DNA from: an uncultured Clostridia bacterium
GTDB lineage: Bacteria; Bacillota; Limnochordia; Darwinibacteriales; DTU012
Assembly (NCBI GenBank): GCA_900019385.1
Contig: FIZJ01000014.1
Span: forward strand, 1-53,617
Direction of reading: 5' to 3'
Length of the DNA: 53,617 nt
In this document: piece after piece, positions 6,414 through 52,181 of the stretch
How positions within the stretch are numbered: position 1 is the stretch's first letter
Layout of the letters: each line of letters opens with the position of its first letter
The notes under the pieces: model-generated
Told to the model about the DNA's origin: nothing
Databases searched by the model: none
What the model saw: only the letters and a program-made list of their open reading frames with translations
Made by a program: the position numbers and the translations under genes

Positions 6414-7652
6414 TTATATCAGGTGGATGAACAACCCGCTCAACAGTTTTGGCTCAAACCAGGTTGATTTGGGGGGCATGACCAGGCCGGCGTCGGCCAC
6501 CCGCATCACATCCGCGATGGAAGTGGGGAAGAGGGAAAAGGCGATCTGCATGTCTTCCTTCACCCGGCGCTCCAATTCCCCAAGGCCGCGGATACCGCCG
6601 ATAAACTCGATCCTCTTGTCAGTGCGGGGATCATTGATGCCTAAGGCCGGGGCCAGGAGATTGTTCTGCAGGATGGCCGCATCCAGGCTGTTTACCGGAT
6701 CCTGCTCAGGGACATATTCTCTTTTTGCGGTGAGTTTGTACCATTTGTCCCTGAAGTACATTCCGAATTGATGGGGCGCTTCCGGGGCATAGGGCGAAAC
6801 AGGAGCCTGCTCCAGGTCGAAGCGCTCTTGAATGCGGGCAAGAAACTCAACGTCAGACAAACCACCCAAATCCCGGACAACGCGGTTGTAAGGCATGATC
6901 CTCAATTGGGAAGCGGGAAACAGTACAGAGAGGAAATAATTGAACGCTTCCGTACCGTTAAAGCCCGGGTTTTCCCGGCGTTTTTTCTGCGCAACCCGCA
7001 GAGCCGCGGCGCTTCGGTGATGGCCGTCAGCGATATAGAAATGGGGCACAGCGGCAAACAGTGCCTTAAGCCCGTCGATCACATCCGGGGCGTCGATCAC
7101 CCAGCAGATTTGCTCAACGCCGTAGGCGGTAAACTGATAAACCGGTTGGTTGGTGCTGATCCAGTTTTCAATTATTCCCGTGATCTGCTCCTGATCAGGG
7201 TACGTCTGCAGGATAGGCCCTGTGTGGGCGCCGACCGTTTCAATATGGTTGGCCCGGTCGATTTCTTTGTCAGGATGTGTGTGCTCGTGTTTCTTGATCA
7301 CGTCGTTAATGTAATCATCCACCGCGGTGGCGCAGACCAGGCCGGTCTGGCTTCTCCCATCCATGATCTGGCGGTAAATGTAAAAGCACTCGCTCAGCTC
7401 AAGCTGGTACAGCCCCTGTGTGATCATTTGCCGCAGGATGCTGCCGGCCTTTGCATACACCTGCGGATGGTGAGGATCGACAGGTTCAGGGAAGTTGATC
7501 TCCGCCCGGTCAATCCGGAGAAACGAATAGGGCTTGTCCTTCACCATCACCCTTGCTTCCGCGCTGCTCATCACATCGTAAGGCAAGTCGGCGATTTGAT
7601 CAGCATATGCCGGATTAGGCCTCAGGGCGCGAAACGGTTTGATTAATGCCAT
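6414..7652 (-). CDS. DUF1015 family protein
   Basis: A 412-aa cytoplasmic protein matching the DUF1015 family, beginning [28 protein letters not shown] conserved core reads [18 protein letters not shown], and the N-terminal half has [27 protein letters not shown]. The DGHHR motif resembles the ParB/SerK-like fold, in which free-serine kinases have been described, so a nucleotide-dependent kinase role is conceivable, but I cannot demonstrate it. serA and serC lie only 4-6 kb away. The start at 7652 is supported by GGAGGAGG just upstream; a longer open frame has no ribosome site and non-homologous sequence. The gene diverges from rhaA. Confidence 0.8.
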
Positions 7653-7680
7653 AGACAGTCCTCCTCCCTTGGATTGTTTT

Positions 7681-7686
7681 ATTATA
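7681..7686 (-). promoter_or_regulatory. Candidate -10 element for the DUF1015 gene
   Basis: Perfect TATAAT on the minus strand, 29 bases before the start codon. The matching -35 at normal spacing is poor, so this is a partial prediction. Confidence 0.4.
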
Positions 7687-7782
7687 TCACAGCCCAATTG
7701 TAAGTGGAAGCAGCAGGAAATAAAGGATTTGGGGGGAAGCATTATATTTAGTAAAAGAATTGTTTCGGAAAGGAGTAAGAAA

Positions 7783-9051
7783 ATGATGCCTGACGATCAA
7801 AAAGCGATTGAATCCAGCTATGAACAGGCGAAAGCGCTTTACGCCAAATGGGGTGTCGATACAGACCAAGTTCTGGATCAATTAGCCAGGATTAGGGTTT
7901 CAATCAACTGCTGGCAGGGGGATGATGTCCGCGGTTTCGAAGGATCGGACGAGCTGACAGGCGGGATTCAGGTTACCGGAAACTATCCAGGTGCCGCCCG
8001 CACACCCGATGAGCTCCGGCAGGACTTGGCGAAGGCGTTGTCTCTGATTCCAGGCAAACACAAAGTAAACATCCATGCCATGTATGCCGAAACCAAAGGG
8101 GCCAAGGCCGACCGCAACGAGCTTAAGCCCGAGCATTTCCAGAACTGGGTGGAGTGGGCGAAAACTCTCGGCATCGGCTTGGATTTCAACCCCACATACT
8201 TTTCCCATCCGTTAAGCGATGACGGTTTCACATTGAGCCACCAGGATCCCAAAATCCGCCAGTTCTGGATCGAGCACGGCATCGCCTGTCGGCACATCGG
8301 GGCTTATTTTGGGCGCGAACTCGGCGTCCCATGCGTCACCAACACCTGGGTGCCCGACGGATACAAAGACCTGCCGGCAGACCGCCTTGCCCCGCGCCGG
8401 CGTTTGATGGAATCGCTTGATCAGATTCTGGCGGCCGATGTGGATACCAGGCACAACATTGACGCGGTTGAAGGCAAGCTCTTCGGGATTGGCTCCGAGT
8501 CCTATGTGGTGGGTTCGAATGATTTCTACCTGGCTTACGCTGCGAAAAACAATGTCACACTGTGCCTCGACGCCGGGCATTTCCATCCCACCGAGTCCAT
8601 AGCTGACAAAATATCGGCGGCGCTTTTGTTTGTCGACCACCTTCTGCTGCACGTCAGCCGGCCGGTGCGCTGGGACAGCGATCATGTAGTGGTCTTCGAT
8701 GATGAGCTGCAGCGGATTATGGAAGAGATCATCCGCAGTGGTGTGAGCGACCGAGTCTTCATCGCTCTTGATTTCTTCGACGGCAGCATCAACCGGATTG
8801 CCGCCTGGACCATCGGAACACGCAACACTCTCAAAGCGCTGTTAAAGGCAATGCTGGAACCGACGGCAGTGCTCAAGGAATATGAGGCCAAAGGCGATCT
8901 AACTTCCAGGCTGGCGCTGATGGAAGAATTGAAGTCCTATCCTTGGGCTGCAGTTTGGGATTATTACTGCCTGCGCCAGAATGTGCCGGTGCGGGATCAA
9001 TGGCTGGCGGAAGTCAAGAGGTATGAACAAGAAGTTCTGCTGAAAAGATAA
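7783..9051 (+). CDS. rhaA: L-rhamnose isomerase
   Basis: Converts L-rhamnose to L-rhamnulose, the first committed step of rhamnose catabolism; a cytoplasmic metal-dependent TIM barrel. Length (422 aa) matches E. coli RhaA (about 419). Recognisable blocks are [65 protein letters not shown] and [18 protein letters not shown], then RWDSDHVV, which supply the His/Asp metal ligands. The open frame begins earlier, but the ATG at 7783 is 7 bases from AGGAG and gives the normal N-terminus. The kinase for the product (rhaB) is 17 kb away in a different operon, so the rhamnose pathway is split across loci. A Gfo/Idh oxidoreductase follows after 37 bp. Confidence 0.95.
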
Positions 9052-25671: not shown

Positions 25672-26097
25672 ATGTTGAAGACAAAGCTGATCCACCCGGA
25701 CATGCTCCGGGTTCTGGCAGCGGCAGGCCACGGTGCGCAGGTGTTGATCACCGACGGCCACTATCCCGCGTCCACCAAGACGCCGCCTGATGTGGAAAAG
25801 ATCTATCTCAATATTAGCCCGGGTTTGGTATCGGTGACAGATCTGCTGCAGGTGCTGGCGGACACGATCGAGATCGAAGCGGCTTATGTGATGGCTCCGG
25901 AGGCGGGCCCGATGCCGGAGATCTTCGCAGACTTCGCCAGGATCCTACCGGAAAGTGTGGAACTGAACAAACTAGGGCGGTTTGAGTTCTATGACCGTAT
26001 TGTAAAGAATGAAGACCTCTGTTTGGTTTTGGTATCGGGAGATACGCGGAAGTACGCCAATATCCTGATTACGATTGGAGTATGCGAACACAACTAG
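25672..26097 (+). CDS. fucU: RbsD/FucU-family sugar mutarotase
   Basis: Interconverts anomers of a sugar so that the next enzyme receives the right form. At 141 aa it has the length of E. coli FucU (140) and its blocks: HPDMLRVLAAAGHGAQVLITDGHYP (with the conserved His and Asp) and the C-terminal RKYANILITIGV. The start at 25672 is 9 bases from GCGAGG; an in-frame TTG nine bases earlier is less likely. Although it resembles the L-fucose mutarotase, it is directly upstream of rhamnulokinase, so it may serve L-rhamnose in this organism; no RhaM-type mutarotase is visible. The fucose isomerase gene is 9 kb away. Confidence 0.85.
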   Translation: MLKTKLIHPDMLRVLAAAGHGAQVLITDGHYPASTKTPPDVEKIYLNISPGLVSVTDLLQVLADTIEIEAAYVMAPEAGPMPEIFADFARILPESVELNKLGRFEFYDRIVKNEDLCLVLVSGDTRKYANILITIGVCEHN

Positions 26098-26111
26098 GCC
26101 GAGGTGATAAT

Positions 26112-27542
26112 ATGGCGTCAAAACTTAACTTGCTCGCCTTTGATTTGGGCGCGTCCAACGGCAGAGCGATCGTAGGCCAATATGACGGGGAACGCCTGAA
26201 TCTGATCGAAGTCCACAAATTCCCCAATGGGCCGCAAACCATCCACGGACACATGTACTGGAATATCTTGGATCTGTTTGCCCAAATCAAGACGGGAGTG
26301 ATCAAAGCCTGCGCCGCTGTGGACGGCAGAATCGACAGCATGGCCATCGACACCTGGGGTGTCGACTACGGCCTTTTGGATGCCAACGACACGCTGCTTT
26401 CCAACCCGTACCATTACCGGGACAAACGCACCGACGGGCTTTTGGATGAGATTTTCGCCGCAATCGGATCCGATATGATTTATGACGCGACCGGGATCCA
26501 GTTCATGCAGATCAATACACTGGTGCAGTTATATGCGGACCGCCGCTGGCGGCCGTGGGTTTTGGACAATGCCCGGACACTGCTGTTTATCCCGGATCTC
26601 CTCAATTTCTTCCTCACCGGGCAGAAGTACAACGAATACACGATCAGTTCCACATCACAGCTGCTTAACGCCACAACCTTGTCCTGGGTCGAACGGATCT
26701 TCACCGCCCTTGACCTGCCCATCGGCTTGATGCAGTCCTTGGTCTTTCCTGGAGCGGTCATCGGGACCGTCACGGAACAGATCAAAGCGGAAACGGGTAT
26801 TGGATGGGACATACCAGTGATTGCCGTAGGCAGCCACGACACAGCTTCAGCGGTGGCCGCCGTGCCCCTTGTTTCCAGTGAAGACAGCGTCTACATCAGC
26901 AGCGGCACATGGTCGCTCTTAGGTATGGAGCTGGAAAAACCGGTGATTAACGAGCACTCCCGCCGTGAAAACTTCACAAATGAGGGCGGCGTGGGCAAAA
27001 CAATCCGGTTTTTGAAGAACATCAGCGGGTTGTGGCTGATTCAGGAATGCCGGAGAATTTGGCAGCGTGATGGGTTGACTTTGAGCTGGGATCAGATCAG
27101 CAAGGCGGCAGAAGCGGCTCCGCTCAAGGCACTGATCAATCCTGACGACCCGAGATTCCTAAATCCGGACAATATGCCGGAAGCGATTGTGGCATACTGC
27201 CGCGAAACCGGTCAGGACGTGCCGGCCAACTACGGCGAGATTGCCCGCTGTGTCTACGAGAGCCTGGCCGTAAGTTATGAGAAAACCATCGCAAAGCTGG
27301 AAGCCATGCTCGGCCGCCGAATCGAGACAATCCACATGGTAGGCGGCGGGATTCAGGCGGAAATCCTCTGCCAGTTCACCGCCAATACCACCAGGCGCAC
27401 AGTCGTCACTGGCCCGATTGAGGCCACGGCCATGGGCAACATGCTCGGCCAGCTGCTTGCAAAAGGAGAAATCAACAGCCTTGAGGAAGGGCGGGAGCTG
27501 ATCCGCAGGTCAGTTGAGCTTAAGACCTATCTGCCGCAGTGA
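26112..27542 (+). CDS. rhaB: Rhamnulokinase
   Basis: FGGY-family kinase phosphorylating L-rhamnulose to L-rhamnulose 1-phosphate. Colinear with E. coli RhaB: AFDLGASNGRAIVGQYD, IDTWGVDYGLLD, HYRDKRTDGL, GIQFMQINTLVQL, VGSHDTASAVAAVPL (with the catalytic Asp), YISSGTWSLLGMEL, NEGGVGKTIRFLKNISGLWLIQECR and VGGGIQAEILCQ. 476 aa, normal. The chosen ATG is 5 bases after GAGGTG; an upstream in-frame start lies in the previous gene. Last gene of the 19.6-27.5 kb operon, followed by a terminator. The aldolase needed to finish the pathway is not in the window. Confidence 0.94.
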   Translation: MASKLNLLAFDLGASNGRAIVGQYDGERLNLIEVHKFPNGPQTIHGHMYWNILDLFAQIKTGVIKACAAVDGRIDSMAIDTWGVDYGLLDANDTLLSNPYHYRDKRTDGLLDEIFAAIGSDMIYDATGIQFMQINTLVQLYADRRWRPWVLDNARTLLFIPDLLNFFLTGQKYNEYTISSTSQLLNATTLSWVERIFTALDLPIGLMQSLVFPGAVIGTVTEQIKAETGIGWDIPVIAVGSHDTASAVAAVPLVSSEDSVYISSGTWSLLGMELEKPVINEHSRRENFTNEGGVGKTIRFLKNISGLWLIQECRRIWQRDGLTLSWDQISKAAEAAPLKALINPDDPRFLNPDNMPEAIVAYCRETGQDVPANYGEIARCVYESLAVSYEKTIAKLEAMLGRRIETIHMVGGGIQAEILCQFTANTTRRTVVTGPIEATAMGNMLGQLLAKGEINSLEEGRELIRRSVELKTYLPQ

Positions 27543-42943: not shown

Positions 42944-45691
42944 GTGAGATTACGGTTCAGGATTCTAGCAGCAGTAATAACAGCTGTAGTAGGCGTGGGA
43001 CTATTCAGCTGCTGTGCTTTGGGGCAGTCGGATCTCGACGCTTTGATGCAAACATTCTTTTCCACCAATTTCGGAGAGTCTTTGAAAGCCCAGGATGCCT
43101 TGGTGGAATTGGGCGACGCGGCAGTGCCGAAAATGGCGGAAGTTCTACAGCGCAACCGCGATGCCTGGAACCGGGTCAAAGCGGTCAATGTTTTGGGCAG
43201 GATCGGGACACCCAGTGCCATTGAGGTTTTGGTCACAGGGATTGCCGACAGCGACGCCACCGTAAGAAACAGCACAGTCGGCGCTGTCAATAAGTTGGAT
43301 GAATCTGGCAAGGCGCTTGCAGCGGCGGGCCTCGCTCCGTACCTGGTGCATACACAGCTGATTGTCCGCACCACCACCGCCAAACTCCTTGAGGAACTGG
43401 GAGTGAGCAAAGCGGACATCGCGGTGGGATTGGTGGAAGTGATTGCCACCCGCGAAGGCCAGGAATGGGATTTAGCATTGAAGGAGCTTGCCAAACTAGG
43501 CCGAGAAGCCGGCAGCGTGGCAAAACAGCTGCTGCCCCTGGTCGATCTTGACAACCCCAATGCGCGCGATACATCGTTTCAGCTTTTGGAGGCGTTGACT
43601 TATATCGGCGCTAGTGATGATCAAGCCTTGATTGATGTTTTGACGCGCCTGCTCTTGACAGATGACTTTGATTTGCGGCAGGAAGCCATATGGGGCATGC
43701 GGCGCCTGCGCCTTGCCGGCAGCCAGATGGTGGAGCCGGTTGCGAACGAGTTGTTGGCCTCCGGCGATATGGAGGATCAGCGGCTTGCTGTTGAGATTTT
43801 GACACAGTTGGGGATTACCCAGCCGGAAGCAGTGGAGGTTTTGAAAGAACTTGCCGCCGACGTGAACAGGAACGAGGCTATCCGGCAGCTGGCAGCCTCA
43901 GGACTGAAGTCCTTGGTGCCCGGTCTGGAATATCACCTTGATCGGGGCCTGGTCGCTGTTTGGACAGACGACGGAGTGTTTTTGAGCTGGCGGCTGTTGG
44001 GGACCGAGCCTTTTGATCTCGGCTTTCATGTTTACCGCGGCGGAGTACGGATTACCGCTGAGCCGATCACCAACAGCACCAACTACCTGGATCGGGAAGG
44101 CACGATCGATGATCAATACTATGTGGCGCCGGTACTTGGCGGAGTGGAGCTGGCTCCGAGTGAAACCGTCCTTGTCTGGCAGCAGAATTACTTGAGCATA
44201 CCACTCTCCAGGCCTGCGGACGGTGTTACACCTGTTGGTGAACGGTATCGCTATTCCGCCAACGACGGCAGCGCCGCCGACCTTGACGGCGACGGACGCT
44301 ATGAGATCATTCTCAAGTGGGATCCGTCGAACTCCAAAGACAACGCTCACGATGGATACACTGGGAATGTCTATATCGACGCCTATACGTTGGATGGAGA
44401 AATGCTGTGGCGGATCGATCTTGGGAGGAATATCAGGGCTGGAGCCCATTACACGCAGTTTATCGTTTATGATCTGGATCTCGACGGAAAGGCGGAACTG
44501 GTGGTCAAGACCGCCGACGGGACGGTCGACGGGGAAGGCAATGTGATCGGCGATCCCAATGCCGATTACCGCAACGCCAACGGGCGCATCCTCACCGGCC
44601 CCGAGTACTTGACTGTGTTTGACGGCGAGACAGGCAGGGCATTGGCCACCATCGACTACAAGCCGCCGCGGGGCAGCGTAGGCAGCTGGGGCGATGGTTA
44701 CGGCAACCGCTCCGACCGTTTTTTGGCGGGAGTGGCCTACTTGGACGGTGTGCGCCCCAGTGTGATTATGGCCCGGGGATATTACACCCGCACAGTGCTG
44801 GTGGCTTACAATTGGGAAAACGGCGAACTGAAGGAAGTCTGGACCTTTGACACCAACGATGGGCTGTACACCTGGACCGGCCAGGGCAACCACCAGCTTT
44901 CGGTTGCGGATGTGGATTACGACGGCAAGCAGGAGATTATTTACGGCGCCATCACCATCGACCACGACGGCAGGGGATTGTACAACACCCGCCTCGGCCA
45001 CGGCGACGCCCTGCATGTGGCTGATCATGATCCGGATCGGGTGGGCCTGGAGATCTGGGCGGTTCACGAATCGGTGCCGCACCAGGCCGGCATGAACCTG
45101 CGGGATGCCCGTACTGGAGAAGTACTCTGGGGCAAACCCACCGACTATGATGTAGGCCGCGGCGTGGCTGCCAATATTGATCCGCGCTACAGGGGCAGCG
45201 AGACTTGGGCCTCCCGGTCGCTGCTGATGGACATTGACGGCAATGAGATCAGCCGGACAGTGCCCACCATGAATTTCGCCATTTGGTGGGACGGAGATCT
45301 GCAGAGGGAGCTTTTGGACGGCACCACCATCAGCAAGTACGACTGGGAGCGGGATGCGATTGTCACCCTGCTTTCACCTCGGGGGGTGGCCAGCAACAAC
45401 GGCTCCAAGGCTACTCCGACCCTGCAGGCGGACTTGTTCGGCGATTGGCGCGAAGAAGTGATCTGGCGGTCCGAAGACAGCAGCGAGCTTAGGATCTACA
45501 CCACGACAGACCTGACTGAGCACAGGCTGTACACGCTGATGCACGATCCCATGTACCGGGTGGCGATCGCCTGGCAGAATGTGGCCTACAACCAGCCGCC
45601 TCACCCAAGCTTCTATGTGGGCGAGGATATGGAGCCCCAGTTCTATCATCCGGGATCGATCAAAGTGTTCCTTATGGAATTGGACCGCTGA
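42944..45691 (+). CDS. Secreted HEAT-repeat / PL11 rhamnogalacturonan lyase, copy 1
   Basis: A 915-aa exported protein. It starts at a GTG 7 bases after GGAGGG, giving a signal peptide (MRLRFRILAAVITAVVGVGLFSC...); the open frame extends further upstream with no signal-like or related sequence. Residues about 28-322 are alpha-helical HEAT-like repeats (for example AQDALVELGDAAVPKMAEVL, KAVNVLGRIGTPSAIEVL). From about residue 326 (GLEYHLDRGLVAV) to the end it aligns with YesW-type PL11 lyases: SWRLLGTEPFDLGFHVYRGG, the calcium-type loop SAADLDGDGRYEIILKWDP, RAGAHYTQF, KTADGTVDG, GNRSDRFLAGVAYLDG, GQGNHQLSVADVDYDGK and LFGDWREEVIWR. PL11 enzymes cut the galacturonate-rhamnose backbone of rhamnogalacturonan I by beta-elimination. 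The HEAT fusion is unusual. First of three tandem copies. Confidence 0.9.
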   Translation: MRLRFRILAAVITAVVGVGLFSCCALGQSDLDALMQTFFSTNFGESLKAQDALVELGDAAVPKMAEVLQRNRDAWNRVKAVNVLGRIGTPSAIEVLVTGIADSDATVRNSTVGAVNKLDESGKALAAAGLAPYLVHTQLIVRTTTAKLLEELGVSKADIAVGLVEVIATREGQEWDLALKELAKLGREAGSVAKQLLPLVDLDNPNARDTSFQLLEALTYIGASDDQALIDVLTRLLLTDDFDLRQEAIWGMRRLRLAGSQMVEPVANELLASGDMEDQRLAVEILTQLGITQPEAVEVLKELAADVNRNEAIRQLAASGLKSLVPGLEYHLDRGLVAVWTDDGVFLSWRLLGTEPFDLGFHVYRGGVRITAEPITNSTNYLDREGTIDDQYYVAPVLGGVELAPSETVLVWQQNYLSIPLSRPADGVTPVGERYRYSANDGSAADLDGDGRYEIILKWDPSNSKDNAHDGYTGNVYIDAYTLDGEMLWRIDLGRNIRAGAHYTQFIVYDLDLDGKAELVVKTADGTVDGEGNVIGDPNADYRNANGRILTGPEYLTVFDGETGRALATIDYKPPRGSVGSWGDGYGNRSDRFLAGVAYLDGVRPSVIMARGYYTRTVLVAYNWENGELKEVWTFDTNDGLYTWTGQGNHQLSVADVDYDGKQEIIYGAITIDHDGRGLYNTRLGHGDALHVADHDPDRVGLEIWAVHESVPHQAGMNLRDARTGEVLWGKPTDYDVGRGVAANIDPRYRGSETWASRSLLMDIDGNEISRTVPTMNFAIWWDGDLQRELLDGTTISKYDWERDAIVTLLSPRGVASNNGSKATPTLQADLFGDWREEVIWRSEDSSELRIYTTTDLTEHRLYTLMHDPMYRVAIAWQNVAYNQPPHPSFYVGEDMEPQFYHPGSIKVFLMELDR

Positions 45692-45713
45692 ACCACACTA
45701 GGGAGCTGAGAAG

Positions 45714-48479
45714 ATGTCAAGACAGCGATGGTTTTGTATAGTATGGGCGTTGACCCTGGTTTGGATGCCCTTCGGTGCTTGTGCCCAGGAACTGCAGGAA
45801 GTGGATCAAGCTTACATTGCCAGGCTGATCGACGATCTCCGTTCCTCAAGCTTTGCCGCTGCTCTGGCAGCGCAGGATGCCCTGGCTGAAATCGGCGACC
45901 CCACTGTCCCGCAGCTTAGGATCCTGCTGAACCGCAGCCAGGACCGGATGGAAAAAACGAAAGCCATCTATGTGCTGGGAAGGATCGGTACCGAAGCGTC
46001 GATACGGGCGATGTTAAGCGCTGCCAGTGATCCAGATCAGAATGTCCGCAGTGCCATCGTCACTGCCGCAAAAAATCTGGATCCGGAGCAAGCAAAGACG
46101 GCGGCGCCGATCTTTGCCGAGTACCTGATCAGCGATCAAGCCGAGGCAAGGGCCACAGCTGCCCAGGCTCTGCAGGCGATGGGAACATCCAAGGCGGACT
46201 TGGCGGAGGTCTTGGCTGACGCGGCGCTGAGTTCTTCAGGACGCAAACGGGAGAACGCCCTGTCGGAAATCGGCAAGCTCGGGCCCGAAGCCGCTCATGT
46301 TGTGCCGCGGCTTTTACCACTGGTGGAGGATGCGGCGCTTGATGAGGCTTTGAATATCCTTGCAGCGTTAGCCGGGATCGGCGGCGAAGCGGTCCGCCCG
46401 CTCGTGCTTGAGCTTGTTGAACCGCTGATCCTGTCAGACGACTGGCAAACGCGTCAGGAAGCTGTCCGAGTGATGCAAAGGATGCGGCTGGATGGCGGAG
46501 AAATGATCGCGCCCGCAGTGAAGCTTCTGGAAAGCGGCGATCCAGCCCAACAGTCGCTGGCGGTGGATATCCTGGCTCATCTGGGCATTACCCAGGGCGC
46601 GGCAGTCATGAAGCTTGCAGAACTGGCGGCGGATGCCGATCATGACTATTCTCTGCGGCAAAAGGCCTTTCAGGCCTTGGAGAGCCTTTATTCCCAAATG
46701 GAATACCATATCGGCCGGGGATTTGTCGCCGTCGATACCGAGGCAGGCGTTTATCTCGGCTGGCGCCTTTTGGGGACTGATCCTTTCGATTTGGGGTTCA
46801 ATATTTACCGCGATGGGGAGAAGCTCAACCATGAGCCGATTACCGCCGGCACCAATTATCTTGATCCCGGCGGTGGCTCTGATTCCAAATACGTTTTGGC
46901 AAAGGTGGACTCGGACGGTGAGACGGTTCTGGCCGAGACGGTCCCATGGAAACAGAATTACCACACAATTCCGCTGCAGCGCCCGGAAGGAGGCGTGACG
47001 CCTGCCGGAGAGCGCTACGAATATACAGCCAATGACGCCAGTGCCGCTGACTTGGACGGTGACGGCGAGTACGAAATCGTTTTGAAGTGGGAGCCGACCA
47101 ACGCCAAGGATAACTCAATCCGTGGCTACACAGGGAATGTGTATATAGACGCCTACAAACTGGACGGAACCTTGCTCTGGCGCATTGATCTCGGGCGGAA
47201 TATCCGGGCCGGCGCCCATTATACTCAGTTCATCGTCTATGACTTGGACGGCGACGGGCGGGCGGAAGTCGCCATGAAAACCGGAGACGGCACCGTCGAC
47301 GGTACTGGAGAAGTGATCGGCGACCCAAATGCGGATCACCGCAATAGAGAAGGCTTGATCCTGACTGGACCCGAGTATCTCACCATCTTCGACGGGGCGA
47401 CCGGGGCGGCTTTGGCTACAGTGGATTATGAGCCGCCGCGTGGAAGTGTATCCAGTTGGGGTGACAATTACGGCAACCGTTCCGACCGTTTTCTTGCAGG
47501 AGTCGCCTATCTTGACGGAAGCCGGCCCAGCTTGATCATGTCCCGGGGCTACTATACCCGGACAGTGATCGTGGCATACAACTGGCGCGACGGCAAGCTG
47601 ACAAAGCTTTGGACCTTTGACACCAACCAGCCGGGTTTGTCTGGGTATGCCGGGCAGGGGAACCACCAGCTTTCCATCGCCGATGTGGACCAAGACGGAA
47701 GAGATGAGATCATCTTCGGCGCAATGACTGTCGATGATGACGGTAAGCCCTTGTACAGCACCGGATTTGGCCACGGCGACGCCCTGCATGTGGGGGACTT
47801 TGATCCGCTGCGCCCTGGGTTGGAAGTGTTCGGTGTGCATGAAGATCGGCCTCATCCGGCCGGGATAAATCTCAGAGACGCCCGGACAGGCGAAGTTATC
47901 TGGAGTATCCCTACGGATTACGACGTGGGTCGGGGGCTTGTCGCTGATATCGACCCCAACTATCCGGGCGCGGAAGCCTGGGCTTCGGGCACCGCAGGCG
48001 TTGTGCGCAGCGCTGCGGGGGAGCAGGTGACATCAACCAAGCCTTCAATCAATTTCGCCATCTGGTGGGATGGGGATCTTTTGCGGGAACTTCTGGACGA
48101 TGTGGCCATCACCAAATGGGATTGGGAGAAAAGGCAGATTGTGCAGCTTTTGTACGCCCAGGGCTGCGGCTCAAACAATGACACAAAGAAGACGCCGGCA
48201 TTGACAGCCGATTTGTTTGGCGACTGGCGGGAAGAAGTGGTGTTCCGGGCCAACGGCAGCCGGGAACTGCGGATCTATACCACGACGGATCTAACGGAGC
48301 ACCGGATTTATACCCTGATGCACGATCGGATGTACAGAGTGGCGGTGGCTTGGCAGAATGTGGCATACAATCAGCCGCCTCACCCCAGTTTTTATATCGG
48401 GCCGGACCAGCCGCCGCCTACGTACAATCCCGGGTTCATACATAATGTGATTGAACGATACGCTCATGAGTTCAAATAG
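45714..48479 (+). CDS. Secreted HEAT-repeat / PL11 rhamnogalacturonan lyase, copy 2
   Basis: A 921-aa paralogue beginning 22 bp after copy 1. The signal peptide is MSRQRWFCIVWALTLVWMPF followed by GACA, with cleavage likely after ACA. HEAT-like repeats fill about residues 28-325 (FAAALAAQDALAEIGDPTVP, KAIYVLGRIGTEASIRAM). The PL11 domain starts near residue 328 (MEYHIGRGFVAVDT), with ASAADLDGDGEYEIVLKWEP, RAGAHYTQFIVYDLDGDGRAEVA, KTGDGTVDG, GNRSDRFLAGVAYLDG and LFGDWREEVVFR. The catalytic domain is strongly similar to copies 1 and 3, while the HEAT part is more diverged. One small difference is MKTGDGTVDG where the others read VKTADGTVDG. GGGAG lies 9 bases before the ATG. Endo versus exo action cannot be decided by eye. 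Confidence 0.9.
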   Translation: MSRQRWFCIVWALTLVWMPFGACAQELQEVDQAYIARLIDDLRSSSFAAALAAQDALAEIGDPTVPQLRILLNRSQDRMEKTKAIYVLGRIGTEASIRAMLSAASDPDQNVRSAIVTAAKNLDPEQAKTAAPIFAEYLISDQAEARATAAQALQAMGTSKADLAEVLADAALSSSGRKRENALSEIGKLGPEAAHVVPRLLPLVEDAALDEALNILAALAGIGGEAVRPLVLELVEPLILSDDWQTRQEAVRVMQRMRLDGGEMIAPAVKLLESGDPAQQSLAVDILAHLGITQGAAVMKLAELAADADHDYSLRQKAFQALESLYSQMEYHIGRGFVAVDTEAGVYLGWRLLGTDPFDLGFNIYRDGEKLNHEPITAGTNYLDPGGGSDSKYVLAKVDSDGETVLAETVPWKQNYHTIPLQRPEGGVTPAGERYEYTANDASAADLDGDGEYEIVLKWEPTNAKDNSIRGYTGNVYIDAYKLDGTLLWRIDLGRNIRAGAHYTQFIVYDLDGDGRAEVAMKTGDGTVDGTGEVIGDPNADHRNREGLILTGPEYLTIFDGATGAALATVDYEPPRGSVSSWGDNYGNRSDRFLAGVAYLDGSRPSLIMSRGYYTRTVIVAYNWRDGKLTKLWTFDTNQPGLSGYAGQGNHQLSIADVDQDGRDEIIFGAMTVDDDGKPLYSTGFGHGDALHVGDFDPLRPGLEVFGVHEDRPHPAGINLRDARTGEVIWSIPTDYDVGRGLVADIDPNYPGAEAWASGTAGVVRSAAGEQVTSTKPSINFAIWWDGDLLRELLDDVAITKWDWEKRQIVQLLYAQGCGSNNDTKKTPALTADLFGDWREEVVFRANGSRELRIYTTTDLTEHRIYTLMHDRMYRVAVAWQNVAYNQPPHPSFYIGPDQPPPTYNPGFIHNVIERYAHEFK

Positions 48480-48493
48480 AAAGGAGTGTCGAC

Positions 48494-51154
48494 ATGCGCA
48501 AACTTACCGCGGTTCTGCTGATGATGGCCGTGTTGTTTGTAAGTTCAGCGGCGGTAAAGGCGGATTCTGAGCAAATCGCCGATTTGATCGATAAACTGCT
48601 CAGCTCGAATTATGTAGTTGCGACTCAAGCTTCCAAGGACCTGGTGGCACTGGGCGCCGATGTTATCCCGCATGTTGCAGAACGGGTTCTAGGCGATACT
48701 CAGTGGACCAACCGGTTGAAAGGAGTCACTGTTTTAAGAGAACTTGGTGTGGTGGAAGGTATCCCATATCTGATGCAGCTTCTGGGTGATGAAAACCAGG
48801 CGGTCCGCGATGGCGCCCGCAGCGCGTTGACAGGAATCCAGGCCGCCAAAGGCGTAGAGGCTGAGGAGGTGCTTGCTGAACTACTGGTTTCGGAGCGTCC
48901 TGTCGTCCGGAATACGGCGGAGCAGATGCTGATCAATGCAGGCTGGACTGAAACAGCGATTCAGGAGAAAATTACTGCCGCGCTCAAGGATCCTGATCCG
49001 GCCCGGAGAAAGGTCGCGGTGGAACGTTTAAGTTTGGCCAACTATCAAAAACGTGTGCTGTTCGAGGAGATTGCCCGGCTGATCAGTGATCCTGACTTGA
49101 CAGTGCGGAAGCAGGCGGTAAAAGGCTTGAGCACTCTCGGGTTTGTACCGGAAGAGATCTATGGGCAGATCCAGGAGCAGCTGCTTGCTGAGGGTAAGGC
49201 TGATGCTGCTGTGCTTTCCGGGCTCTTCGCCCAGATGGTGCAGAGCGACCAAAAAGCTGCTGTGGTATTAATGGAGATAATCACTGATCATAATCAAGAC
49301 CTGGTGCTGCGGCAGGCGGCATATGACGGGCTTGCCCAAGCGGTGCCGCAGCTTGAGTATCATCTCGGCCGAGGCCTGGTGGCCATCAAGATCGATGGGG
49401 GAGTGTACCTAAGCTGGCGCCTTTTGGGGACTGATGCTTTTAATTTAGGGTTCAATGTGTACCGAGACGGAATCAAGATCAACGCAGAGCCCGTCACAGC
49501 CGGCACCAACTTTATCGACTCAGAAGGGACGTTGGCGGCCGAGTATTATATAACTGCGGTCAAGGACGGGGTGGAGGTTGAACAGTCGGAGACTGTCCAA
49601 GTGCTGCCTCAGGCGTACATCGCCATTCCATTGGATCCGCCTCCCGGCGGCCGCACTCCAGACAATGTAAGCTATTCATACACTGCCAATGACGCCAGTG
49701 CCGCTGATCTGGACGGCGACGGTCAATTTGAGATTGTCCTGAAGTGGGACCCCACCAACGCCAAGGACAATGCCCACAGCGGTTATACAGGCAATGTATA
49801 CATCGATGCCTATAAGCTCGACGGCACCAGAATGTGGCGGATCGACCTCGGCCGCAACATCCGTGCCGGCGCCCACTATACCCAGTTCATGGTCTACGAC
49901 TTCGACGGCGACGGCAAGGCGGAGTTGGCCGTCAAGACTGCCGACGGCACAGTGGACGGCTTGGGCAATGTGATCGGCGATCCCAGTGCCGATTACCGGA
50001 ACTCCAGCGGGTATATTCTCGCTGGGCCTGAGTACTTGACGATGTTTGATGGTGAGACAGGAGCTGCTCTTGCCACTATCGACTATATACCGCCGCGGGG
50101 GAATGTGGCCGCTTGGGGCGACAGCTACGGCAACAGGGTGGACCGCTTCCTGGCGGGAGTGGCATATCTGGATGGAGTAAGGCCGAGTCTGTTGATGGCC
50201 AGAGGCTACTACACTAGAGCGGTGATCGCCGCCTTCAACTGGGTGGACAATCAGTTTGTCCCGGTTTGGGTGTTCGACAGCAATGATCCCGGGAATCACA
50301 TCGCCGCGGGCCAAGGCAACCACCAGCTTTCCATCGCCGATGTGGATGGAGACGGTCGGGACGAGATAATTTACGGTGCTGTGACCATCGATGATGATGG
50401 GACGATCATGTATGCCACCGGATTGGGCCACGGCGACGCCATGCATGTGACGGACATCGATCCCAGCCGTCCGGGGCTGGAAGTGTTCGCCGTCCATGAA
50501 TCGACGCCGAATCCAGCCGGCATCGAGCTGCACGATGCCCGCACTGGGGAAATCCTCTGGGGCATTCCCACCGACTACGATGTCGGCCGCGGGATTAGTG
50601 TGAATATTGATCCCAACCACTACGGCAACGAAGCATGGGCGTCCAGAAGCCCACTTTTCAACGCCAAAGGCGAGATTATCTCCACCAGTGTGCCGAACTC
50701 CATCAACCATGCCATTTGGTGGGATGGTGATCTGCTCCGGGAGCTTTTGGACCACACAGGAACCGGTGGCGCCGGCAAGATCGATAAGTGGGATTGGGAA
50801 CATCAGCGCACTGTCAATTTGGCCACCTTTGCCGGCACTGCGTCAAACAACGGCACCAAAGGCAACCCGGCGCTTACAGCGGATATCTTGGGAGACTGGC
50901 GGGAAGAGGCGATCTTTAGAAGAAGTGATAACAAAGAGCTGCGAATTTACCTGACGACCTATCCAACAGAACACCGCCTCTACACGTTCATGCACGACCG
51001 GCAGTACCGGGTGGCCATCGCCTGGCAGAACGTCGCTTACAACCAGCCGCCTCATCCCAGCTTCTATGTTGGTGACGACATGGAAATCCAGGACTTTAAC
51101 ATCGGGCAGGCGTATCGGGTGCTGGAGCAGTATAGGGAGGAACTGGGTAAATAA
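48494..51154 (+). CDS. Secreted HEAT-repeat / PL11 rhamnogalacturonan lyase, copy 3
   Basis: An 886-aa paralogue, 14 bp after copy 2. The signal peptide is MRKLTAVLLMMAVLFVSSAA followed by VKA, a likely cleavage site. The HEAT region (about 24-283) is roughly 40 residues shorter than in copies 1 and 2, about one repeat. The PL11 domain starts near residue 285 (LEYHLGRGLVAIKIDGGVYL) and keeps the calcium-binding loops (ASAADLDGDGQFEIVLKWDP, FDGDGKAELAVKTADGTVDG), GNRVDRFLAGVAYLDG, GQGNHQLSIADVDGDGRDEI and DILGDWREEAIFR. AAAGGAG is 8 bases upstream of the ATG. A strong terminator follows, so the three lyases form one operon. Three copies may give different endo/exo or side-chain tolerance. Confidence 0.9.
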   Translation: MRKLTAVLLMMAVLFVSSAAVKADSEQIADLIDKLLSSNYVVATQASKDLVALGADVIPHVAERVLGDTQWTNRLKGVTVLRELGVVEGIPYLMQLLGDENQAVRDGARSALTGIQAAKGVEAEEVLAELLVSERPVVRNTAEQMLINAGWTETAIQEKITAALKDPDPARRKVAVERLSLANYQKRVLFEEIARLISDPDLTVRKQAVKGLSTLGFVPEEIYGQIQEQLLAEGKADAAVLSGLFAQMVQSDQKAAVVLMEIITDHNQDLVLRQAAYDGLAQAVPQLEYHLGRGLVAIKIDGGVYLSWRLLGTDAFNLGFNVYRDGIKINAEPVTAGTNFIDSEGTLAAEYYITAVKDGVEVEQSETVQVLPQAYIAIPLDPPPGGRTPDNVSYSYTANDASAADLDGDGQFEIVLKWDPTNAKDNAHSGYTGNVYIDAYKLDGTRMWRIDLGRNIRAGAHYTQFMVYDFDGDGKAELAVKTADGTVDGLGNVIGDPSADYRNSSGYILAGPEYLTMFDGETGAALATIDYIPPRGNVAAWGDSYGNRVDRFLAGVAYLDGVRPSLLMARGYYTRAVIAAFNWVDNQFVPVWVFDSNDPGNHIAAGQGNHQLSIADVDGDGRDEIIYGAVTIDDDGTIMYATGLGHGDAMHVTDIDPSRPGLEVFAVHESTPNPAGIELHDARTGEILWGIPTDYDVGRGISVNIDPNHYGNEAWASRSPLFNAKGEIISTSVPNSINHAIWWDGDLLRELLDHTGTGGAGKIDKWDWEHQRTVNLATFAGTASNNGTKGNPALTADILGDWREEAIFRRSDNKELRIYLTTYPTEHRLYTFMHDRQYRVAIAWQNVAYNQPPHPSFYVGDDMEIQDFNIGQAYRVLEQYREELGK

Positions 51155-51303: not shown

Positions 51304-51311
51304 TGGTTGGA

Positions 51312-52181
51312 ATGCGCATTAACAACAATATCAGCGCGATTAACGCTCAAAGGCGGTTGAACGCCAATCAAAAAGCAGGGGCAAAATCAATGGAAAAGCT
51401 CTCAAGCGGCCTGAGGATCGCCCGCGCTGCTGACGATGTAGCCGGTCTTGCGATTTCCGAAAAGATGAGGGCACAGATCCGCGGTTTGAGGCAGGCATCC
51501 CGAAATGCTCAAGACGGCATCAGTTTGGTCCAGACTGCCGAGGGAGCGTTGAATGAGACTCATGCGATTCTTCACAGACTGAGAGAACTTGCCGTTCAAG
51601 CAGCGACAGACACTAATACGCTGGAAGACCGAAAGGCAATTCAAAGAGAGGTCAACGAACTTATTGACGCGATAGATGAAATCGCGAACAATACAGAGTT
51701 CAACGCTACCAAGATTCTTGACGGCTCGTTTTCAGGCAAGATCCATATCGGTGCCAATCAAGATCAGAATATGGACATCAGTATCACGAGCATGAAATCA
51801 GCGGATTTGGGTATTGCAGGTGGCCAAACTCTGGCTGATCTGAAAGTGGATAATCTTGATGATGACACGACCGAAACCGGCGGTGTGCTGACATATGATG
51901 ACGCCAACTCAGCGATAGGTGTGATCGACGGAGCGATTAAACAAGTCTCGAACGAACGCGCTATGCTGGGTGCCATTCAAAACCGGTTGGAACACAGCAT
52001 TGCCAATCTCAACTCATCGGCGGAAAACCTCCAGGCTTCTGAATCACGGATCCGGGATCTCGATATGGAAGAAGAGTTCATGGAATTTGTCAAAAACACG
52101 ATTCTCCAACAAGCAGCTACCTCAATGCTGGCCCACGCCAATATGGCACCTCAGAGTGTGCTGCAGCTGCTCGGACAGTAG
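51312..52181 (+). CDS. hag: Flagellin 1
   Basis: Filament subunit, 289 aa, with no signal peptide (exported by the flagellar type III apparatus). The N-terminal D0/D1 helices are classic: MRINNNISAINAQRRLNAN, EKLSSGLRIARAADDVAGLAISEKMRAQIRGL and ELAVQAATDTNT. The C-terminal D1/D0 ends IRDLDMEEEFMEFVKNTILQQAATSMLAHANMAPQSVLQLLGQ. The variable centre is short (about residues 150-215), so this is a compact flagellin of the Bacillus type. A longer frame starting inside the lyase gene is rejected on ribosome-site grounds. Expression is predicted to depend on sigma-D and on CsrA/FliW-type translational control. Confidence 0.96.
   Translation: MRINNNISAINAQRRLNANQKAGAKSMEKLSSGLRIARAADDVAGLAISEKMRAQIRGLRQASRNAQDGISLVQTAEGALNETHAILHRLRELAVQAATDTNTLEDRKAIQREVNELIDAIDEIANNTEFNATKILDGSFSGKIHIGANQDQNMDISITSMKSADLGIAGGQTLADLKVDNLDDDTTETGGVLTYDDANSAIGVIDGAIKQVSNERAMLGAIQNRLEHSIANLNSSAENLQASESRIRDLDMEEEFMEFVKNTILQQAATSMLAHANMAPQSVLQLLGQ

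Follow-up and report, generated by a model that had tools for sequence, protein, structure and literature searches.

HEAT-repeat arms on three tandem PL11 lyases and on other pectin enzymes of one Bacillota lineage

Three adjacent genes on a contig of an uncultured Clostridia bacterium (FIZJ01000014.1; 53,617 nucleotides, the whole stretch analyzed and hereafter the window) encode proteins that join an N-terminal signal and a long run of HEAT repeats to a PL11 polysaccharide lyase. The bacterium belongs to a little-studied group of anaerobes, and coiled helical arms of this type usually serve to hold other proteins. Proteins with HEAT_2/PBS-lyase-type repeats, such as CpcE/F, NblB, the QueG C-terminus and the alphaReps, resemble this arm in repeat sequence and solenoid fold. 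Those proteins are cytoplasmic or designed, whereas here the repeats sit on exported polysaccharide lyases. We ask what such an arm does on an enzyme of this kind.

Domains and predicted structure of the array proteins

The array consists of the following features:

42944-45691, + strand: HEAT-PL11 copy 1 (P0001, 915 aa), GTG start at 42944
43028-43933, + strand: copy 1 HEAT region, spanning roughly residues 29-330 (Pfam HEAT_2, three stretches; alignment A3)
43934-45637, + strand: PL11 catalytic part of copy 1, RGI_lyase 331-412 and RGL11_C 416-898 (Pfam)
45714-48479, + strand: HEAT-PL11 copy 2 (P0002, 921 aa; Pfam, AlphaFold, Foldseek)
45798-46688, + strand: HEAT region of copy 2, residues 29-325, 18 helices or nine repeats (AlphaFold; HEAT/ARM folds in the PDB)
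46695-48410, + strand: PL11 catalytic part of copy 2, RGI_lyase 328-408 and RGL11_C 416-899 (Pfam, Foldseek)
48494-51154, + strand: HEAT-PL11 copy 3 (P0003, 886 aa; Pfam)
48566-49354, + strand: copy 3 HEAT region, spanning roughly residues 25-287 and shorter by about one repeat (Pfam, A3 alignment)
49361-51088, + strand: PL11 catalytic part of copy 3, RGI_lyase 290-370 and RGL11_C 375-865 (Pfam)

An earlier note, made from the letters of this DNA, had described three tandem proteins with a signal peptide, HEAT repeats and a complete PL11 domain, and Pfam analysis bears this out: the open reading frames lie where the note had placed them, and HEAT_2 scores over cut-off in all three. HEAT_2 scores were 54.5, 68.5 and 54.9 bits for P0001, P0002 and P0003 (cut-off 27.7), RGL11_C was matched over its full length at 828-847 bits, and RGI_lyase was complete at 86-102 bits. 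HEAT matches from NCBIfam were weak and far under its cut-offs. Each protein has the same order, with the HEAT region followed by the RGI_lyase beta-sheet domain and then RGL11_C. Only HEAT-type and other helical families of Pfam matched the N-terminal region, with no known carbohydrate-binding module family among them. A hydrophobic N-terminal signal was recognized by eye in all three proteins. The genes are separated by 22 nt (copies 1 and 2) and 14 nt (copies 2 and 3). For P0001 a longer frame is also open from 42734; its orthologues begin at the counterpart of 42944. From these domains we predict that the cell exports P0001-P0003 as rhamnogalacturonan lyases and that their PL11 domain cuts the backbone of rhamnogalacturonan I (RG-I). 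Two sugar-utilization genes lie on the same contig:

7639-9051, + strand: L-rhamnose isomerase (RhaA)
26082-27542, + strand: FGGY sugar kinase

Together with a GH95 protein, a fucose isomerase and an arabinofuranosidase domain also encoded in the window, their predicted products are consistent with use of both the side chains and the backbone of RG-I.

The catalytic parts align over their whole length, at approximately 60% identity, with YesW and YesX of Bacillus subtilis and with the PL11 enzyme of Bacillus licheniformis (4cag). When the AlphaFold model of P0002 was compared by Foldseek, its catalytic part superposed on the beta-propeller of these enzymes with a TM-score of the target of 0.87-0.90, again at approximately 60% identity. 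The likeness to these solved enzymes thus covers the entire catalytic part and its predicted fold, but they have no HEAT arm. The alignment of P0002 with YesW is poor in gaps, and P0002 lacks the YesX loop PGNDGMSYG, which has a role in the exo mode of action. Because this loop is missing, we infer that the PL11 domain of the array enzymes is probably endo-acting, like YesW.

AlphaFold was run on P0002, the one copy modeled, with an alignment of 24 rows. Residues 29-325 were predicted as 18 helices, from which nine repeats were counted, and the beta fold starts after residue 338, with about a dozen residues separating the last HEAT helix from the PL11 domain. Folded by itself, the HEAT region reached a pLDDT of 91.6, compared with about 88 as part of the full-length model. 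In the A3 alignment P0003 has a 36-residue gap, equivalent to about one repeat. The closest solved structures to the P0002 HEAT region are alphaReps, the PP2A A subunit, importin alpha, AP-2 and similar HEAT/ARM solenoids. A Foldseek search of the PDB with the full protein placed YesX, YesW and 4cag on top, followed by alphaRep, armadillo and importin solenoids. VIA-align gave a Z of about 13, a value usual among helical repeats that names no function. Mean conservation in A3 was about 0.49 for first helices and about 0.54 for second helices, too close to carry meaning. We conclude that in the model the HEAT region of P0002 is an alpha-solenoid of paired helices, so that the structure prediction proposed in the earlier note upholds, for copy 2, the fold that note had assumed.

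Conservation and distribution of HEAT-PL11 genes

Three other species of the same genus (G006, G008 and G009) carry the three HEAT-PL11 genes in identical order, and since all of these genes are open in the four species, the architecture is not a chance arrangement. A GGDEF-EAL gene lies upstream of the array in all four, with one extra gene between in G008 and the contig ending within the GGDEF-EAL gene in G009, and an aldose epimerase gene precedes it wherever the contig extends that far. On the far side, an aldo/keto reductase gene adjoins the third copy in G008 and G009; in the window genome a flagellin gene (51306-52181, + strand) sits between it and the array.

In a PL11 tree of 100 rows, the 15 HEAT-PL11 proteins fall on one side of a single branch whose support is low (36), so the tree is compatible with a single origin of the fusion rather than establishing one. 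Each array copy clusters with its own orthologues; the triplication is older than the split of the four species.

The two parts of these proteins have changed at different rates. Orthologues share 44-68% identity in the HEAT region versus 77-91% in PL11, and the HEAT dN between orthologues (0.21-0.51) is about two to five times that of PL11; synonymous sites are saturated, which makes dN/dS ratios unusable. That the HEAT regions are open in 12 of 12 array genes at such dN values, with synonymous sites saturated, argues that they are under selection. The HEAT region is retained yet free to change. Divergence is larger between paralogues within one array, at 24-40% identity for HEAT versus 66-68% for PL11, as expected if every arm has its own partner or if the fold alone is kept.

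A RGL11_C match was present in 25 of 398 genomes sampled across the phylum. Among the sampled genomes, HEAT-PL11 was confined to this genus and to two genomes of one other family (G076, which is FIZI01, an uncultured Clostridia genome, and G117). In that distant family the genes are single and do not form an array. The remainder of the best 80 of more than 590 matches in the collection came mostly from Paenibacillus, Bacillus and their relatives and had no HEAT region. The earlier note had left room for this architecture to be already common and characterized; it was not common among the genomes sampled, and no description was encountered in the literature searched. A distant PL11-like gene without HEAT was also seen on contig C23 (L159 3239-4959, + strand), broken into two frames that are separated by stops and unreadable residues.

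HEAT arms on other pectin enzymes

A HEAT_2 profile search of the whole window genome found, besides the array, a HEAT-PL4 rhamnogalacturonan lyase (contig C17), a HEAT-PL1-HEAT-CE8 protein of 1615 aa (C8), a HEAT-PL1 pectate lyase (C16) and QueG (C13), whose C-terminal HEAT region is ordinary for QueG. Further fusions are encoded by relatives: HEAT-PL4, HEAT-GH16 and more HEAT-PL1 in G008, where the closest solved relatives of the GH16 domain are laminarinases; a HEAT-beta-helix protein in G009; and HEAT-PL1 and HEAT-CE8 in G010, which belongs to another genus of the family. In the second family, G076 encodes, in addition to its HEAT-PL11, a HEAT protein that ends in a pectate lyase.

Five genomes of the family encode 38 HEAT proteins (G000, 7; G006, 6; G008, 11; G009, 8; G010, 6), a tally that mixes Pfam matches with phmmer finds, some of them near or under the Pfam cut-off (the C16-type PL1 of G009 and the PL1 on C56 of G010), and that leaves out a CE8 protein of G008 (L232) with a phmmer match alone in its N-terminal part. 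Pectin enzymes account for 29 of the 38. The others are one GH16 protein, one beta-helix protein, one HEAT protein without another domain, which carries an N-terminal signal, and six cytoplasmic proteins, namely a sigma factor and five QueG (two confirmed by Pfam and three assigned from size and profile range). In G007, from the same genus, a QueG-sized HEAT protein was the only one found, and no PL11, CE8 or PelZ-type PL1 was found. A HEAT-like N-terminus was seen at 4 of 30 pectinesterase loci sampled in the phylum, all four from this family. Because the arm is fused to PL4, PL1, PL1 plus CE8 and PL11 in the window genome and to pectin enzymes in most of the family-wide tally, and given the G007 pattern, we conclude that pectinases of this lineage share it as a reusable accessory module and that it is not a peculiarity of PL11. 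The new accessory module suspected in the earlier note therefore gains support from enzymes outside the array. The arm is not required for attack on pectin, since two pectinases of the window genome lack it: a PL1 that looks like a lipoprotein (C32) and a CE8 of 341 aa (C53).

Several individual genes deserve description. The HEAT-pectate lyase-HEAT-pectinesterase protein of about 1.6 thousand residues occurs in three species, and G008 has separate, neighboring HEAT genes for its PL1 and CE8 parts (L156 3018-7862, + strand; L198 1316-6492, - strand). Either a fusion produced the long protein or it has been divided. A short thrombospondin-type-3-like motif, EEYLNG, ends the PL1 part of HEAT-PL1 proteins (L198 3847-6492, L201, L210 and L272) and scores under the Pfam cut-off. 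Compared with its G008 relative (L193), the HEAT-PL4 gene of C17 (L231 6885-9236, - strand) is missing the signal peptide and roughly the initial hundred residues of the HEAT region; this copy may be truncated, because the DNA ahead of it looks like the end of a different gene. The sigma factor of G008 (L196 1405-3387, + strand) is of ECF type, and its HEAT region is C-terminal. HEAT-only proteins with N-terminal signals are encoded at L203 (2596-3795, + strand) and L206 (1307-3220, + strand), and the L203 gene, a candidate partner, adjoins a HEAT-pectate lyase gene.

Possible roles of the arm and its cellular setting

We favor protein docking as the role of the HEAT arm, at a probability of about one half. 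The solenoid would be a non-catalytic N-terminal arm of the exported PL11 lyases that binds a partner protein, be it from the envelope or a second HEAT arm, thereby holding pectin enzymes together or at the cell; the same type of arm on pectate lyases, pectin methylesterases and PL4 lyases would most likely do the same job. Domain content, solenoid fold, array conservation and reuse across enzyme families are computed results; we infer the binding of protein, the partner and the location. Docking is favored because most known HEAT/ARM solenoids with a similar fold are protein binders, because the arm recurs on different enzymes that share one class of substrate, and because a signal-bearing HEAT-only protein adjoins a HEAT-PL1 gene in G010. 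Our searches yielded no partner, scaffold or shared binding motif for the arm. The earlier note had suggested that the arm may dock the enzymes to the cell surface, to one another or to the polymer. Both the fold and the paralogue divergence fit protein docking without showing it: a fold held in common does not reveal function, certain HEAT proteins have ligands that are not proteins, and the divergence of the HEAT region would fit a loosely constrained spacer too.

That the arm binds substrate directly, as a new alpha-solenoid carbohydrate-binding module for pectin, would explain why it tracks substrate, given the 29 of 38 family HEAT proteins that carry pectin enzymes, and helical repeats can bind glycans, as in the glycan-binding SusD-type proteins. 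Several properties of the region make this doubtful. Aromatic residues are few (3-8 per 100 residues in HEAT regions, with the window proteins at 3.0-3.9), HEAT identity is only 24-40% between paralogues whose presumed substrate is one and the same polymer, and one relative joins HEAT to a GH16 domain that is closest, among solved structures, to laminarinases. The HEAT regions are also acidic (net charge -5 to -34), unlike typical binders of polyanions, a weak argument and not a decisive one because the PL11 part is acidic too. A rigid spacer, or an aid to folding or stability with no specific partner, would agree with the fast divergence of a region that keeps its fold and with a last helix that lies about a dozen residues ahead of the PL11 domain. 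We nevertheless consider it unlikely: the arm is long (260-700 residues), it is reused mainly on one enzyme class, and a signal-bearing HEAT-only protein is encoded next to HEAT-PL1 in G010.

Omp85, secretin and SLH genes were found in 7 of 7 genomes searched, which points to a two-membrane cell, and an 876-aa SLH protein resembles OmpM by eye. In such a cell, enzymes with signal peptides enter the periplasm and may or may not go further. As these enzymes must cross the outer membrane or stay behind it, the arm might direct export or retention, for instance as a signal used to pass a secretin. This we regard as quite improbable, since other exported enzymes do without the arm, the secretins may belong to type IV pili, and we know of no HEAT tag in type II secretion.

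Returning to docking, a wider version of that proposal is that HEAT solenoids form a dockerin-free, lineage-wide system that assembles PL1, PL4, PL11 and CE8 enzymes into complexes or on the surface of this two-membrane Bacillota cell. We advance it tentatively and consider it less likely than not. By analogy only, one non-catalytic module is likewise common to several enzyme families in the dockerin-bearing cellulosomal pectinases of Clostridium thermocellum. That system is built from dockerins and scaffoldin; the window proteins have no dockerin, no scaffoldin was found, and the shared module is a HEAT solenoid. The cellulosome-like assembly imagined in the earlier note accordingly found no positive evidence: no dockerin was detected in P0001-P0003 (Pfam, E 0.1) and no cohesin over cut-off in the draft window genome. 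A RicinB-PL11 protein of G407 (L162), a modular pectinase with a lectin, likewise places an accessory module N-terminal to PL11, but its module is a beta-trefoil lectin and not a set of helical repeats.

Neither PL11 nor HEAT is new in itself, and CAZymes built from modules are common. Their combination appears to be new, and more so the way HEAT recurs across several families of pectin enzymes; no description of HEAT repeats on pectin enzymes or other CAZymes was found in the open-access literature searched. To our knowledge, nearly every accessory module on plant-cell-wall enzymes is a beta-rich carbohydrate binder, a dockerin or a surface-anchor repeat. Helical repeats that return as a module on unrelated pectin enzymes within one lineage would add another class. 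Pectin is the glue of plant cell walls, and the presence of the arm on at least four unrelated pectin-cutting families suggests an undescribed way of docking or organizing the enzymes that digest it. If HEAT arms assemble enzymes, they would provide a cohesin-free way to build enzyme complexes, and dockerin-free docking, if true, would have answered independently the same need that cellulosomes meet. The unit worth studying is the HEAT module across pectinases rather than the three PL11 copies, and the HEAT-pectinase set offers concrete proteins for a docking study.

A cellulosome assembled by dockerin and cohesin was considered and set aside, as the window proteins have no dockerin and the cohesin-like domains of relatives occur singly in a separate protein. 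The window genome has, at L224, a gene pair whose cohesin domain scores under cut-off; the same pair in relatives encodes a protein with a single cohesin-like domain beside an SLH-domain protein (L225 12-1892 and 1888-3249, + strand).
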